A stretch of DNA of 64,000 nt from Demequina oxidasica (GTDB taxonomy: Bacteria > Actinomycetota > Actinomycetes > Actinomycetales > Demequinaceae): NCBI RefSeq assembly GCF_000975115.1, contig NZ_BBRE01000001.1, positions 1,083,322 through 1,147,321 of the forward strand, in the 5' to 3' direction. The notes beneath the pieces are model-generated. The model did not search any database. It was not told the DNA's origin and saw only the letters and a list, made by a program, of their open reading frames with translations. A program made the position numbers and the translations under genes. Positions 3,151-36,936 of this stretch are shown here, one piece after another (position 1 is the first letter of the stretch; every line of letters starts with the position of its first letter).

Positions 3151-4518
3151 CTACATGTCGGGTGCCATGTCCGCGAAGTGCGCGAAGTCCTTACGGAAGG
3201 CGACGGCGATGGTATCCGTGGGTCCAGCGCGGTGCTTGGCGATGATGAAGTCCGCCTCACCAGGGCGGTTGTCGCGGTCGTATGCGTCCTCGCGGTGCAG
3301 CAGGATCACGATGTCGGCGTCCTGCTCGATCGAGCCAGACTCACGCATATCGGAGAGCATCGGCTTCTTGTCGCCACGTTGCTCGGCGCCACGGTTCAGC
3401 TGCGAGATGGCGATGACCGGCACCTCGATCTCCTTGGCAAGCAGCTTGAGCGCACGGGAGAACTCGGAGACCTCCTGCTGGCGCGATTCGACCTTGCGGC
3501 CCGAGCTCATGAGCTGGAGGTAGTCGATCACCACGAGTTGCAAGTCGTGCTGCTGCTTGAGGCGGCGGCACTTGGCACGAATCTCCATGAGCGACATGTT
3601 GGGGCTGTCATCGATGAAGAGCGGTGCCTTGGAGATTGAGGCCGCCGTCTGCGCGAGTCGCTCCCAGTCGTTCGGACCCATGGGGCCCTTGGTGAGCTTG
3701 GTGAGCTTGACGCTCGACTCCGCGGACAACATGCGCTTGGTAATTTCCTCGCGGCTCATTTCCAGCGAGAAGATGACGGAGGCCTTGCCGGCGCCGATGG
3801 CGGCCGCACGGCAAATGTCGAGGCCGAGGGTCGACTTACCGATGGCGGGTCGCGCGGCGATCACCACCATCTGACCCTTCTGCAGTCCACCGGTGAGCTC
3901 GTCGAGTTCGCGGAAGCCCGTGGGGATGCCGCGCATTGAACCGTCGCGGATAGATGAGGCTTCGATCTCATCGATGGTGCGCTCCATCACCTCGCCGATG
4001 GGCAGGTAGTCCTCCGAGTTACGGCGCTCCGTGACCGCGAAGATCTCCGACTGCGCGCTGTCCACGATGTCGTCCACCTGCGAGCCGTCGGCCTCGTAGC
4101 CCATGCCCGCGATGCGCGTACCGGCCTCAACCAGCTTGCGCAGGATTGACTGCTCGCGCACCAGACGGGCGTAGTAGCCAGCCGAAGCGGCGGACGGCAC
4201 CATCGAGATCAACGTGTGCAGGTACTCGGCACCGCCGATGCGGCTGATAGATCCATCACGCTGGAGCTCGGCGCTCACGGTCAGCGCGTCCACCGGGTTG
4301 CCGGAGTTGTAAAGCTTGACGGTGACGTCAAAAATGGTCTCGTGCGCTGGCTTGTAGAAGTCATCGGCTCGAATCGTCTCGATGACGTCAGCCATCGCGT
4401 CCTTCGAGAGCATCATCGCGCCGAGCACGCTCTGCTCAGCTTCGAGGTTCTGCGGCGGCAACCGGTCGAATGATGCGGCGTCGTTGCCGTAGGGAGGAGC
4501 CATCTCGTCAATAGACAT
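3151..4518 (-). CDS. dnaB: Replicative DNA helicase DnaB
   Basis: Hexameric 5'-3' helicase of the replisome. The N-terminal domain carries RLPPQNLEAEQSVLG, typical of DnaB. The RecA-like motor carries Walker A ARPAIGKST, Walker B VVIDYLQLM and the Q-S-G-like segment MRESGSIEQDADIV. No intein interrupts it, unlike some actinobacterial dnaB genes. The start at 4518 gives 455 residues, close to the usual length, and has AGAGGA upstream; in-frame ATGs at 4590 and 4626 would add 24-36 residues with no obvious conservation. It is downstream of rplI but separated by a terminator and about 500 bases, so it likely has its own promoter, which holds DnaA-box-like sequences. Confidence 0.97.
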   Translation of the reverse strand: MSIDEMAPPYGNDAASFDRLPPQNLEAEQSVLGAMMLSKDAMADVIETIRADDFYKPAHETIFDVTVKLYNSGNPVDALTVSAELQRDGSISRIGGAEYLHTLISMVPSAASAGYYARLVREQSILRKLVEAGTRIAGMGYEADGSQVDDIVDSAQSEIFAVTERRNSEDYLPIGEVMERTIDEIEASSIRDGSMRGIPTGFRELDELTGGLQKGQMVVIAARPAIGKSTLGLDICRAAAIGAGKASVIFSLEMSREEITKRMLSAESSVKLTKLTKGPMGPNDWERLAQTAASISKAPLFIDDSPNMSLMEIRAKCRRLKQQHDLQLVVIDYLQLMSSGRKVESRQQEVSEFSRALKLLAKEIEVPVIAISQLNRGAEQRGDKKPMLSDMRESGSIEQDADIVILLHREDAYDRDNRPGEADFIIAKHRAGPTDTIAVAFRKDFAHFADMAPDM

Positions 4519-4676
4519 CTGCGCTCGGATCCTCTCTTCCGGTGTCGGCCTTCGCTGCCGGGCAACAGCCCCAAGGTCGCGACGTGACATCAGCCACTTT
4601 TCAAGTGTCTCTAATGGGACTGACACGCCACCCTATGGCTCGCCCGCGGCTACGCAAAACGGCGTTGCCTGGGACC

Positions 4677-4888
4677 CGTGGATAGGTCGCAATTCTCCGT
4701 GGATGAATTGTGAACAACTCCCGCGACGGCCTGTGGACACATATGTGTATTACGCAAGATCGCCACTCGGCCAAACTGATATACCAGGAACTTTGGTTGT
4801 CACACCACTGGGGATAAACCTTGGGTCTAAAGTTCCGGGCGTGTCGCACATGGGCGTGTCGCCCACGGTCCGAAACGGACTCTCCACA
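4677..4888. promoter_or_regulatory. Cluster of DnaA-box-like 9-mers upstream of dnaB
   Basis: Within about 210 bases there are TGTGAACAA (4709), TGTGGACAC (4732) and TGGGGATAA (4809), each 8/9 to TGTGGAYAA. CGTGGATAG (4677), CGTGGATGA (4699) and CTCTCCACA (4880) match 7/9. The region has no gene and lies just before dnaB, between it and the rplI terminator. Binding by DnaA is inference; control of dnaB or titration of DnaA would fit. Confidence 0.45.
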
Positions 4889-4963
4889 GCCGACGCAGTA
4901 CGTCGATCTCACCAGCTTTCGCACTCAGGCGGTAGCCCGACGACGGCCTTTGCACTGGGCACG

Positions 4964-4997
4964 CAAAAGGCCCGGCCCCTATAAGGGGCCGGGCCTT
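4964..4997 (-). terminator. Terminator of the rpsF-ssb-rpsR-rplI operon
   Basis: A perfect 14-base stem (4967-4980 with 4984-4997) around loop ATA lies 33 bases past the rplI stop. Read on the minus strand it is followed by TTTT. This is a classical intrinsic terminator and separates the ribosomal operon from dnaB. Confidence 0.9.
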
Positions 4998-5030
4998 GAG
5001 ACCAACGGACATCAGCCCGCGAGAAGTGCG

Positions 5031-5474
5031 TTAGCCAGCGACGACGTTCACGGTCACGGTGGCGGAGACGCCATCGTGCAGTGAAACCTTCACCGAGTAC
5101 TCACCGGTCGACTTGATCGGCTGAGCGATCTGAATGCGACGCTTGTCGACCTTGGCGCGGTCGCCGATGGCGTCCGCGATCTCGGCCGTCGTGATGGCAC
5201 CGAACAGGCGACCGGACGGACCGGCCTTTGCCGAAACGGTGACCGGGTTCGACTGAAGAGAGTCGCGTGCGGCCTGAGCCTCTTCAACGCTGGCAATCTT
5301 CTTCTCGTTCTGCGACTTGCGCAGTGCGGCGATCTGCTTCTCCGCGCCAGCTGACCAACGAGTGGCGAGCGAGCGAGGAACCAGATAGTTGTTCGCGTAG
5401 CCGTCCTTGACGTCAACGACGTCACCGGCGACACCGAGGTTGCCCACTTCGTGGGTCAAAATAACCTTTGCCAT
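5031..5474 (-). CDS. rplI: 50S ribosomal protein bL9
   Basis: Component of the large ribosomal subunit that binds 23S rRNA near the L1 stalk. The protein has 147 residues, the family's normal length, with the N-terminal bL9 signature GNLGVAGDVVDVKDGYANNY and a basic helix before the C-terminal domain. The ATG follows AAAGGGAACCCCTC. It is the last gene of the rpsF-ssb-rpsR-rplI operon, 14 bases after rpsR, and is followed by a strong terminator. The order matches that of most actinobacteria. Confidence 0.97.
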   Translation of the reverse strand: MAKVILTHEVGNLGVAGDVVDVKDGYANNYLVPRSLATRWSAGAEKQIAALRKSQNEKKIASVEEAQAARDSLQSNPVTVSAKAGPSGRLFGAITTAEIADAIGDRAKVDKRRIQIAQPIKSTGEYSVKVSLHDGVSATVTVNVVAG

Positions 5475-30915: not shown

Positions 30916-32114
30916 AGCTGTCCTCCTGAATGGGAAGCGGTGTGCCCGCGTTCCGCGATGTCCTTGGCGGCAGCCAAATAGGCAACTGCGCCGGTCGAGT
31001 GGGGGTCGTACGTCATCACCGTCTGCGCGAAGCTGGGAGCCTCCGACACCCGCACGCTGCGCGGAATAGTCTGCTCGAGCGTCTGGTTCGGGAAGTGCGC
31101 CCGCACCTCGGATGCCACCTCGCGTGCCAAGTTGGTGCGGGCATCGAACATTGTCAGCACGATCGTGCTGACGTGAATCTCCGGATTTAGGTGCTTCTTG
31201 ACCATGTCAACGGTCTTGATGAGCTGCGTGAGGCCCTCGAGCGCGTAGTACTCACACTGAATGGGGATGAGTACCTCATTCGAGACCACCATCGCGTTTA
31301 GCGTCAGCAATCCCAAGCTAGGCGGGCAGTCGATGAAGATGTAGTCGAGGTTCTTGCCCGGTCCCTTGAGGAGTTCATGGATCGCAGTGTGAAGACGGAA
31401 CTCGCGCCGCACTACAGAGACCAGTTCGATATCCGCGCCGGCGAGGTCGATTGTGGCAGGAACGCACCACAAGGTGTCGATGTCGGGGCAGCGCTGCGCA
31501 ACTTTGGAGATCGGCTCGTCGTCTAGCAGGACGTCGTAGATTGACGGAGTGCCCGCGTGGTGCGGAACACCCAGCGCCGTCGAGGCATTTCCCTGTGGGT
31601 CGGAGTCTATGACGAGCACGTTGGCACCTCTGGAGGCGAGCGCTGCCGCAAGGTTCACGGAGGTAGTGGTCTTACCCACGCCACCCTTCTGGTTGGTCAC
31701 AGTAATGATGCGGGTCGTCGGTGGCCGAGGGAAGTCAGTTGCTTCCAATGCGCGGCGTTTGCGTTCAGTCTCGATCATTTCCCTCGCCAACGGGCTCTCG
31801 TCGTCTTCCGTGATTCCGACGAATGCGTCATCGGCCGTTTCACGTGAAACATTGAGTGCGTCACCCACCGCGGGATTCTCCCCCGTCGCGGCGACGTCCG
31901 TCGTAACAGCTGATGAGCCAGTCGTTTCTGCGGCCGCCTTAGCGCTGGGGAAAGCGCTCCCGCCGCCTACACGGTCCGAGTCGACCGGCGCGTACACAGG
32001 TACGCCGCGCCGACCCCCCTTAGACAAGGTGCCCGCACTGGCCGTCGGCTCGTTGTCGTGTGGACTTGCTGATGCTGGTGCACCGCCCTGATTCGGGGGC
32101 GTCGGCTCCGTCAC
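30912..32114 (-). CDS. parA: Chromosome partitioning ATPase ParA
   Basis: Walker-type ATPase that moves ParB-bound origins. The deviant Walker A is [19 protein letters not shown], with [13 protein letters not shown] and [12 protein letters not shown] following. The first 135 residues are an unstructured extension not found in short ParA/Soj proteins. This extension encodes NVSRET, the peptide read from a parS site embedded in the gene (31837-31850). The start is GTG at 32114 with CAGGAG five bases upstream. A long gene-free zone with further parS sites lies upstream. Confidence 0.96.
31837..31850. promoter_or_regulatory. parS site inside parA
   Basis: Perfect palindrome GTTTCACGTGAAAC, the universal ParB-binding core, in the coding sequence for the ParA N-terminal extension. 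Confidence 0.93.
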
Positions 32115-32549
32115 GCATTACTCCTGTCCGCGCCACCGACCCGAGGGCCTGGCGCACCGCACGCCGCCCAAAACGGCGACGCAACTACTCGTTGACAATC
32201 TATCCCGAGTAGAAAATCGCCTCGGGCCGGCCTCGTTGGATAAGCAACTGAGTCATCCACCAACCGGATCCTGATAAATCCTATCCGTCATAGCGCCGGG
32301 CATCGTCGCCCTCCCCGTCTACCGCGCGCTCCTGCCGCGATTCGGCTCATAGCTGGCGGCCCGATTCAGACCCTCACGACACAGCGCAGGTCGCCGCACG
32401 CCAAGCCGAATTCAAGCACCGCCCCGGCTCCGTCCACACGGTCCGGCCGTCGCGCGTCAGCCATGTACGGCCACTAGTGACACGCGACTCAACCACCGTA
32501 GCCTCCTCCACCCCTGTGGCGCCAGGCGAGGGCGAGGGCATCCCTGGCG

Positions 32550-32565
32550 TGTTTCACGTGAAACA
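32550..32565. promoter_or_regulatory. parS site
   Basis: Perfect 16-base palindrome TGTTTCACGTGAAACA in the gene-free zone upstream of parA. Confidence 0.95.
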
Positions 32566-33325
32566 CCGCCGAGCAGAGGAGTCCACAGTGCCCACCAACG
32601 CCCTCCTCACTACTGCCCGTCGCGTAGCCAAGGGAATCGCGATCATCACGTGCAGCCAGGAAAGCAGCCCGCAACCACTCTCCACCACGACGGCGCGCAC
32701 CTTCCCTCACCACTGAACTACAGGCGTCAGATGCATTGCCGCGCCTCAGCCACGGCGAGGGCGGAGGCTCTCAGCCAAGCTCTACAAGAATCCGCCACCA
32801 CCAGGCGGCGCTCGAGAACCGCCTGGCAGGACTCCGCGAAAAGCGACGGCAATACAACCTAGTGTGCGGCGATGGCCTGGACCCGCAGTGCGATGGCCCC
32901 TCGGCCACTGCTAGGCGGGGCCCCACTGGAGGCCACAGGAGCGCAGCCTCGTGTGCGCTCATGGGCGGACGCTGCCAATGCGGCAGGCCCCTTCCGGACC
33001 CCGCATGCCGTGCTAGACACCCATACGTAGCCAGCATGGTCCTCTGGTACTCACGCGTGGCCCCGGTCCCTGTAGCGCGCAGGAAACCGCGACAAGTCGA
33101 CTCTCACCCGCCATGCAGTGGCGCACTCAACTACCGGCAAGAACCAAGATGGAGCCCGTCGCACTGAGTCGCAAGCATCATGGCCCAGGATCACCATCCT
33201 CATCAACACCCTGACAAGGCGGGCAGACATGGGCCGTGAGCAACAATGGAGCGCTCCTGCAAAACGGGATCCCCGCACAACGGGGCGGGCCTCAAACAAC
33301 CAGAGAGACAAAGGCGCCCTCATCA

Positions 33326-33341
33326 TGTTTCACGTGAAACA
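33326..33341. promoter_or_regulatory. parS site
   Basis: Perfect 16-base palindrome TGTTTCACGTGAAACA, 160 bases past the rsmG stop in the gene-free zone. Confidence 0.95.
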
Positions 33342-33400
33342 TGGTGTGGGAAACACCGCGAACCACGGAGAGACGTAGTGTCGCAAAAAATGCGCACGCC

Positions 33401-33466
33401 TGTGGAAAGACGGTGCGTATTGCCCCATTCCACGCATAAAACGGCTGTGGAGAACTTTGGGGATAA
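33401..33466. promoter_or_regulatory. DnaA-box-like trio near rsmG end
   Basis: TGTGGAAAG (33401, 7/9), TGTGGAGAA (33446, 8/9) and TGGGGATAA (33458, 8/9) resemble the DnaA box TGTGGAYAA, all in the same orientation. None is perfect, and binding is unproven. Confidence 0.35.
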
Positions 33467-33499
33467 CTGCACCGGCCGCGCGTAGGAAGCAGGGCGGGG

Positions 33500-34243
33500 T
33501 TAAGACCGAGTGAGTGTGACCACCGTCGTCGCATCGACACCCGCAATGGTGGGAGCCGAATGCACGGCACCCTGCAGCCCGTGCTTACGCAACACATACT
33601 TGGCACGCTCCAACTCCTCCGGAGCTGAACGCCCCTTGAGGAACACCATCTGCCCCGTGGGAGACAGGAGCGGGGCACACCACTTCACCAGCTTGTCGAT
33701 CGAAGCCACAGCACGCGCAGTGATCACGTCGGCTTCCACCACGTCGGATACCTCCTCGGCACGCCCGCGGACCACCGTAACGTTGTCAATACCCGTTATC
33801 TCCGCAGCCTCAAACAACCAGGCCGTACGCCGTTCCATGGGCTCCACCAGCACCACAGGACGGGAAGGCTCCATCGCAGCCAGCACCATGCCAGGTAGGC
33901 CAGCACCGGAACCGACGTCCACGAGCGTGCCGTCAGGCAAGAAGGGTGCCAATGCGGCCGAGTTAAGGATGTGGCGCTCCCAAATTCGGGTCAACTCCCT
34001 AGGGCCTATAAGCCCACGCAGGATGCCCTGATCGGCCAATAGTTCCGCGAAAGAACGCACGCGTCCGAGCGAGTCGCCAAAAAACTCCTCAAGTGCGGGG
34101 GAGTCATTGAGGGGATCCCCCGTCAGGGTGCGCAGTGCTGGATCTACATCACCAACAACTGAACCCGACTTAGGGGTGGACGACACCAGATGCCCTTGCC
34201 CTGATGCTGAGGCATGGAACTCGTCTTCACTTGATGCGGTCAT
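33500..34243 (-). CDS. rsmG: 16S rRNA (guanine-527-N7)-methyltransferase
   Basis: SAM-dependent enzyme (GidB) that methylates G527 of 16S rRNA; loss gives low-level streptomycin resistance in other bacteria. The 247-residue protein has a 45-residue Ser/Asp-rich extension, then EEFFGDSLGRVRSFAELLA, the SAM loop LVDVGSGAGLPGMVLA and the RsmG motif VITARAVASIDKLVKW. It keeps the conserved place between jag and parA. The start is the first ATG of the frame; the extension may mean a downstream start is used instead. A parS site lies between it and jag. Confidence 0.93.
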   Translation of the reverse strand: MTASSEDEFHASASGQGHLVSSTPKSGSVVGDVDPALRTLTGDPLNDSPALEEFFGDSLGRVRSFAELLADQGILRGLIGPRELTRIWERHILNSAALAPFLPDGTLVDVGSGAGLPGMVLAAMEPSRPVVLVEPMERRTAWLFEAAEITGIDNVTVVRGRAEEVSDVVEADVITARAVASIDKLVKWCAPLLSPTGQMVFLKGRSAPEELERAKYVLRKHGLQGAVHSAPTIAGVDATTVVTLTRS

Positions 34244-34262
34244 CCCCTACACCTCCCCGGTT

Positions 34263-34276
34263 GTTTCACGTGAAAC
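34263..34276. promoter_or_regulatory. parS site between rsmG and jag
   Basis: Perfect GTTTCACGTGAAAC core in the 79-base gap before rsmG, the closest parS to dnaA in the window (about 2.7 kb). Confidence 0.95.
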
Positions 34277-34331
34277 ACTACCCGCCACCCGCGATTTCAC
34301 CGAGGGTGGTCAGGAATGACTTGTGAGCCTT

Positions 34332-36915: not shown

Positions 36916-36936
36916 TGTGGATAATGCTGTGGACAA
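36916..36936 (+). promoter_or_regulatory. Two perfect DnaA boxes before dnaA
   Basis: TGTGGATAA (36916-36924) and TGTGGACAA (36928-36936) are exact DnaA boxes, same orientation, three bases apart, 21 bases before the dnaA start codon. They suggest autoregulation of dnaA and may contribute to the origin. Confidence 0.85.

Follow-up and report, generated by a model that had tools for sequence, protein, structure and literature searches.

A conserved array of predicted DnaA boxes in register with a predicted dnaB promoter in Demequina oxidasica and most of the class Actinomycetes

DnaA is both the replication initiator and a transcription factor, and a group of DnaA boxes away from the dnaA-dnaN spacer can be read in several ways. 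The window analysed here (the whole stretch of 64,000 nucleotides from Demequina oxidasica, contig NZ_BBRE01000001.1) carries such a group directly upstream of dnaB, the gene of the replicative helicase. The question raised by this locus, already put in an earlier note on the same DNA, is whether these boxes serve DnaA control of helicase supply, the titration of DnaA, or a remnant or auxiliary origin of replication.

The boxes lie in an intergenic region of 512 bp (window 4519–5030), with dnaB on one side (ATG at 4516–4518) and the stop codon of rplI (at 5031) on the other, and the stretch is gene-free, as had been claimed for some 210 bases of it. The dnaB product is well conserved, with 79–100% identity for the main match in 43 of the 44 Demequina genomes (in the 44th, G011, it comes in pieces), and the DnaB of Demequina aurantiaca is 100% identical to that of the window. 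The features of the locus are as follows, with distances measured from the predicted -35 element.

3151–4518, minus strand: dnaB, replicative helicase, 455 aa, from translation and start codon placement
4630–4635, minus strand: predicted -10 element of the dnaB promoter, TAGGGT, from the pattern TTGNNN-N16..19-TANNNT and a conserved block in the Demequina alignment
4652–4657, minus strand: predicted -35 element, TTGCGT, with a 16-bp spacer (the alternative TTTGCG at 4653–4658 gives 17)
4677–4685, minus strand: predicted DnaA box CTATCCACG, 7/9, at 28 bp
4698–4706, minus strand: predicted DnaA box TCATCCACG, 7/9, at 49 bp
4709–4717, minus strand: predicted DnaA box TTGTTCACA, 8/9, at 60 bp
4732–4740, minus strand: predicted DnaA box GTGTCCACA, 8/9, at 83 bp
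4744–4752, minus strand: predicted DnaA box TAATACACA, 7/9, at 95 bp
4809–4817, minus strand: predicted DnaA box TTATCCCCA, 8/9, at 160 bp
4837–4866, minus strand: two 15-bp direct repeats with the core GCGACACGCC, from a repeat search, in conserved columns of Demequina
4880–4888, plus strand: weak predicted DnaA box CTCTCCACA, 7/9, in the opposite orientation, at 231 bp
4967–4997, minus strand: perfect 14-bp inverted repeat, a probable rplI terminator, from a repeat search

A plain sigma-70 scan of the dnaB-rplI gap reported no promoter, and the looser TTGNNN/TANNNT pattern was substituted for it in promoter calling. The inverted repeat at 4967–4997 was not among the calls of a T-run terminator scan of the gap; from its sequence it is a probable terminator of rplI, which would part the ribosomal operon from dnaB. 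The tandem repeat at 4837–4866, upstream of the box array, appears with its full pattern in 31 of the 44 Demequina genomes and at none of the 56 named loci from other genera; it may be bound by another factor that regulates dnaB. Downstream of it there is a conserved CCTGGTA-like word at 4782–4787. When the words of the Demequina gap (the tandem repeat, CCTGGTA, and TGTCAGACC) were searched outside the genus, they were rare or absent.

Boxes were scored against the actinobacterial consensus TTRTCCACA, with the E. coli consensus TTATCCACA as the stricter alternative. With the former, the gap contains three 8/9 matches (4709, 4732, and 4809) and at least four 7/9 matches (4677, 4698, 4744, and 4880), bearing out the three and three reported at first, and a further 7/9 match at 4708 overlaps the 4709 box on the opposite strand. 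With TTATCCACA there are one 8/9 and six 7/9 matches, so the number of 8/9 boxes depends on the consensus chosen. At the 4744 box the Demequina consensus (ATCCACA) matches better than the window sequence itself, and it is doubtful that the 4880–4888 box belongs to the array. The earlier note had also described the cluster as being as dense as the dnaA-dnaN spacer of the window. For matches of at least 7/9 we count 8 in the dnaB gap against up to 10 per 212 bp in the spacer, but of 8/9 matches the spacer has only one.

Over 2,623,557 bp of the genome, 612 sites differ from the motif by no more than one mismatch, compared with 353 for the reversed-motif control. In a 520-kb sample of the window genome we found 0.229 sites per kb, a highest count of six 7/9 matches in 212 bp, and only one other place with at least three sites in 212 bp, so that an equal density elsewhere, which would have spoken against the cluster, was nearly absent from this sample. 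Density within one genome, taken alone, is suggestive, and it is conservation that decides. In 47 gaps upstream of dnaB (44 Demequina and three Demequinaceae MAGs) we counted 178 sites and 32 exact boxes, where first-order Markov shuffles predict 5.85 and 0.33, respectively.

Other DnaA sites, together with parS sites, are found elsewhere in the window. Immediately before dnaA (36916–36936), two perfect DnaA boxes, TTATCCACA and TTGTCCACA, stand 12 bp apart, a pair that from its sequence probably serves dnaA autoregulation. Four parS sites (three perfect and one with one mismatch) are located at 31836–34277, in and around parA-gidB, and two 8/9 DnaA boxes, also 12 bp apart (33446–33466), lie in the parA-gidB interval, with a parS site roughly 100 bp away.

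The dnaB-upstream cluster is conserved in most of the class, far beyond chance. Within 600 bp upstream of dnaB there are 174 sites in 26,284 bp in the 44 Demequina genomes (6.62 per kb), 201 in 33,390 bp at the 56 named loci of other genera (6.02 per kb; the genera include Cellulomonas, Actinotalea, Oerskovia, Promicromonospora, Sanguibacter, and Arthrobacter), and 282 in 48,600 bp at 81 class/order loci (5.80 per kb), compared with 0.16, 0.07, and 0.27 sites per kb, respectively, farther upstream at the same loci. At least two 8/9 boxes are present within this distance in 42 of the 44 Demequina, 51 of the 56 named loci, and 66 of the 81 loci from other Actinomycetes; loss of the motifs in close relatives, named beforehand as a possible refutation, is thus not what the genus displays. 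The class sample comprised 40 of the 104 genomes with a match, and the order sample 30 loci plus 20 further stretches from 99 genomes with a match; L222 and L223 were excluded as duplicates, as were genomes whose DnaB match starts inside the gene (intein type). No box of at least 8/9 was detected near dnaB in seven of the 81 class/order loci, so the element is dispensable in some lineages, and the poor loci (one or zero sites) include families f39 and f43 (six loci together), one genus of f2, and f14. Outside the class Actinomycetes the signal is weaker, with 23 sites in 15,541 bp and at least two sites in seven of 26 loci, drawn from 76 genomes of the phylum with a dnaB match.

The cluster travels with dnaB and not with rplI. 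In Cellulomonas-type genomes rplI is often 1.7–2.9 kb from dnaB, and the boxes still adjoin dnaB. The distance between dnaB and dnaA in complete genomes is usually about 20–85 kb; in one genome of family f38 (G192) it is about 130 kb, and four sites are retained there (L246). In family f43, dnaB is found about 270–380 kb from dnaA (G197, G211, G235, and G285) with rplI still near dnaA. At 17 rplI loci (f39, f43, and one f2 genus), all in lineages whose dnaB has few boxes or none, there were zero or one site each, and no cluster had been left behind. The idea that the cluster is a property of rplI, or of a place near oriC, was rejected on the basis of the genomes in which dnaB and rplI are apart. 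In f43 (L248, L254, L243, and L265–L272) boxes are missing at both the displaced dnaB and rplI, which makes this family a natural experiment on losing the proposed DnaA control of dnaB.

The position of the boxes relative to the predicted promoter was analysed in arrays with at least two boxes, in which the pattern TTGNNN-N16..19-TANNNT was sought in the 90 bp that follow the last box. It was found in 29 of 42 Demequina, 33 of 51 named-genus, and 26 of 66 class/order arrays (0.3, 0.5, and 1.4 expected, respectively), or in 88 of 159 arrays altogether versus about 2.2 expected; the remaining 71, with no promoter matching the pattern, were excluded from the phasing test. The spacer is 17 bp in 63 of the 88 predicted promoters, and their predicted leaders have a median length of about 98 nt. 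Measured from the -35 element, the forward boxes fall on a grid of 11.0 bp with R = 0.807 (202 sites, 76 distinct arrays), a value reached by none of 300 nulls generated by whole-array shifts. The slots across genomes are near 16, 27, 38, 49, 60, 71, 82, 93, and 104 bp; those from 27 to 93 are occupied by forward sites of at least 6/9 in 40–69 of the 88 arrays, and the half-way positions in 0–5. Genomes of the same family are not independent, and kinship within families was addressed solely by a test with one genome per family, in which 16 families gave R = 0.847 versus a null maximum of 0.604, and only R = 0.130 when the start codon was the reference point. The phase of the grid is 5.33 within Demequina and 5.32 outside it, and the six forward boxes of the window (28, 49, 60, 83, 95, and 160 bp) are each at most 2 bp off the grid. 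An 11-bp periodicity is common to the dnaB-upstream boxes and the Demequina dnaA-dnaN spacer. In orientation, the 8/9 boxes near dnaB are divided 152 to 17, versus 48 to 37 in the spacer. The possibility that the phasing is an artefact of boxes miscalled as -35 elements was discarded, since not one of the 88 -35 elements scores 7/9 as a box, and the grid has a phase of about 5.3 instead of 0. The boxes hold an 11-bp register with the predicted -35 in 16 families, which points to the cluster as a promoter element, an oriC-like array next to the predicted dnaB promoter.

A box array that is conserved, faces mostly one way and keeps this register is most likely a DnaA-binding control region of the predicted dnaB promoter, judging from the sequences compared here, and the initiator would probably control in this manner the supply of its own helicase. 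Experimental data from mycobacteria agree. IDAP-seq in M. tuberculosis ranked the region upstream of dnaB (at Rv0057) among the top five DnaA sites, the same five, dnaB upstream region included, were recovered by ChIP-seq in M. smegmatis, and in M. tuberculosis the DnaA mutant I282T combines reduced binding upstream of dnaB with a unique under-expression of this gene, as reported in PMC7738170, where DnaA binding upstream of dnaB in Caulobacter is also cited. DnaA control of helicase supply, the first of the three readings, is thus well supported by the promoter register, by boxes that follow dnaB and by the mycobacterial binding and expression data. We infer for Demequina that DnaA would bind at a real promoter as follows. 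It would occupy mostly same-facing boxes whose spacing is 11 bp (box of 9 bp, gap of 2 bp) or a multiple of it, and form an ordered oligomer along the dnaB strand, ending just upstream of the -35, where the end of the oligomer could contact RNA polymerase. This contact would most likely activate transcription of dnaB, with repression possible at high DnaA, and helicase supply would thereby be coupled to the amount or the ATP state of the initiator. Activation is favored because one mycobacterial mutant with weaker DnaA binding at this place under-expresses dnaB. Both signs of control may nevertheless occur, since at E. coli nrdAB DnaA activates via high-affinity boxes and represses at high DnaA-ATP (PMC8203912).

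The array could instead be purely repressive, with DnaA shutting dnaB off as it does with dnaA. DnaA is described as repressing its own promoter in several bacteria (PMC8203912), and the slots nearest the promoter abut the -35; the boxes, however, are placed upstream of the -35 and not over the promoter, and dnaB mRNA is lower, not higher, in the mycobacterial mutant whose DnaA binds less (PMC7738170), so that we consider repression rather unlikely. That a set of weak motifs arose here by chance could be argued from the single 8/9 site left by the strict E. coli consensus, but class-wide conservation and register refute this, and its probability is practically negligible.

The other two readings concern replication itself. 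The boxes could be a store of DnaA near oriC, of the type of the B. subtilis clusters or E. coli datA, with any effect on dnaB incidental. They are indeed clustered outside oriC, would be copied early given that dnaB is usually about 20–85 kb from dnaA, and their 8/9 matches are denser (178 in 26,121 bp) than those of the dnaA-dnaN spacer (85 in 25,798 bp), while B. subtilis deprived of six such clusters is reported to initiate early (PMC5295017). Titration, however, needs no 11-bp promoter register, the cluster is not kept independently of the neighboring gene, being absent at the 17 rplI loci, and G192 retains its cluster in spite of the displacement of dnaB. The window genome also has a better-suited separate cluster about 34 kb to the left of the window (L292:19316–19393), with five sites of at least 8/9 between convergent genes, predicted to encode a HAD-type hydrolase and a CtaG-like protein; since its flanking genes are convergent, this cluster is at no promoter, and it is from its sequence a better titration candidate than the one at dnaB. 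In 16 of 30 Demequina loci the CtaG-like gene is followed by at least two 8/9 boxes (53 sites in 9,000 bp). We therefore hold titration to be unlikely as the main role of the dnaB cluster, and possible as a side effect. An auxiliary or displaced origin could likewise be suspected in the dnaB gap, which, like oriC, holds a DnaA-box cluster, with 8/9 boxes outnumbering those of the dnaA-dnaN spacer and an oriC-like 11-bp spacing. Against it, the spacer retains its own conserved boxes (85 sites versus 8.2 expected in 43 Demequina loci), the boxes at dnaB are tied to a promoter, and the dnaB gap is less AT-rich, with a median highest AT in 50 bp of 0.53 versus 0.56 in the spacer (p = 1.6e-5), so that this genus-wide comparison does not point to an AT-rich unwinding element in the gap; in the window alone the two values (0.58 and 0.62) are nearer than the genus medians. 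GC skew, computed for the window and for 200 kb of two other Demequina genomes, was so weak that no origin could be located from it. The remnant or auxiliary origin proposed at the outset is not supported and is highly improbable.

Returning to DnaA control of the dnaB promoter, DnaA binding at dnaB was already known, and what appears to be new is the class-wide, promoter-locked 11-bp comb: neither a box array in promoter register nor class-wide conservation at dnaB was found in the freely accessible literature searched. Such a comb would account for the ranking of the dnaB upstream region among the strongest mycobacterial DnaA sites, and it suggests that helicase supply may be tied in general to the level of the initiator in the class that contains Streptomyces and the mycobacteria. 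As an array locked in register across a class, with sharp predictions of slot and phase, it also offers a test system for communication between a DnaA oligomer and the polymerase. A bolder idea, which we offer tentatively as possible rather than probable, is that the dnaB promoter of Actinomycetes might be a transcriptional twin of oriC: an 11-bp comb of the kind assembled at the origin would be built in one direction as far as the -35, RNA polymerase at dnaB would sense the state of DnaA assembly by which the origin is fired, and every initiation would thereby call for its own helicase.

In E. coli oriC, arrays of 9-mer boxes with 2-bp gaps, that is, an 11-bp repeat, support DnaA oligomers, and the same repeat (9-mer plus 2 bp) is seen at dnaB. 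Unlike the dnaA-dnaN spacer of Demequina, which is more AT-rich and has boxes facing both ways, the dnaB array is one-way and locked to a promoter. DnaA boxes outside oriC are shared with clusters in B. subtilis, studied as titration sites, and in Streptomyces, where the clusters H24, H69, and D78 have reportedly been studied in the same role. The arrangement of multiple DnaA boxes beside a promoter also resembles the E. coli nrdAB and dnaA promoters, where activation and/or repression is described (PMC8203912), with three boxes at nrdAB in that account versus up to about ten one-orientation slots on an 11-bp grid upstream of the dnaB -35. A close likeness is to the mycobacterial site, a DnaA-bound region immediately upstream of dnaB within the same class, where binding is experimental and here it is predicted from sequence. 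The boxes of the window lie directly upstream of dnaB, are kept in relatives and are placed in register with the predicted promoter. The account in PMC7738170, as far as it was available, gives binding and the effect of the mutant on expression, and mentions neither a box array nor its promoter register nor class-wide conservation.
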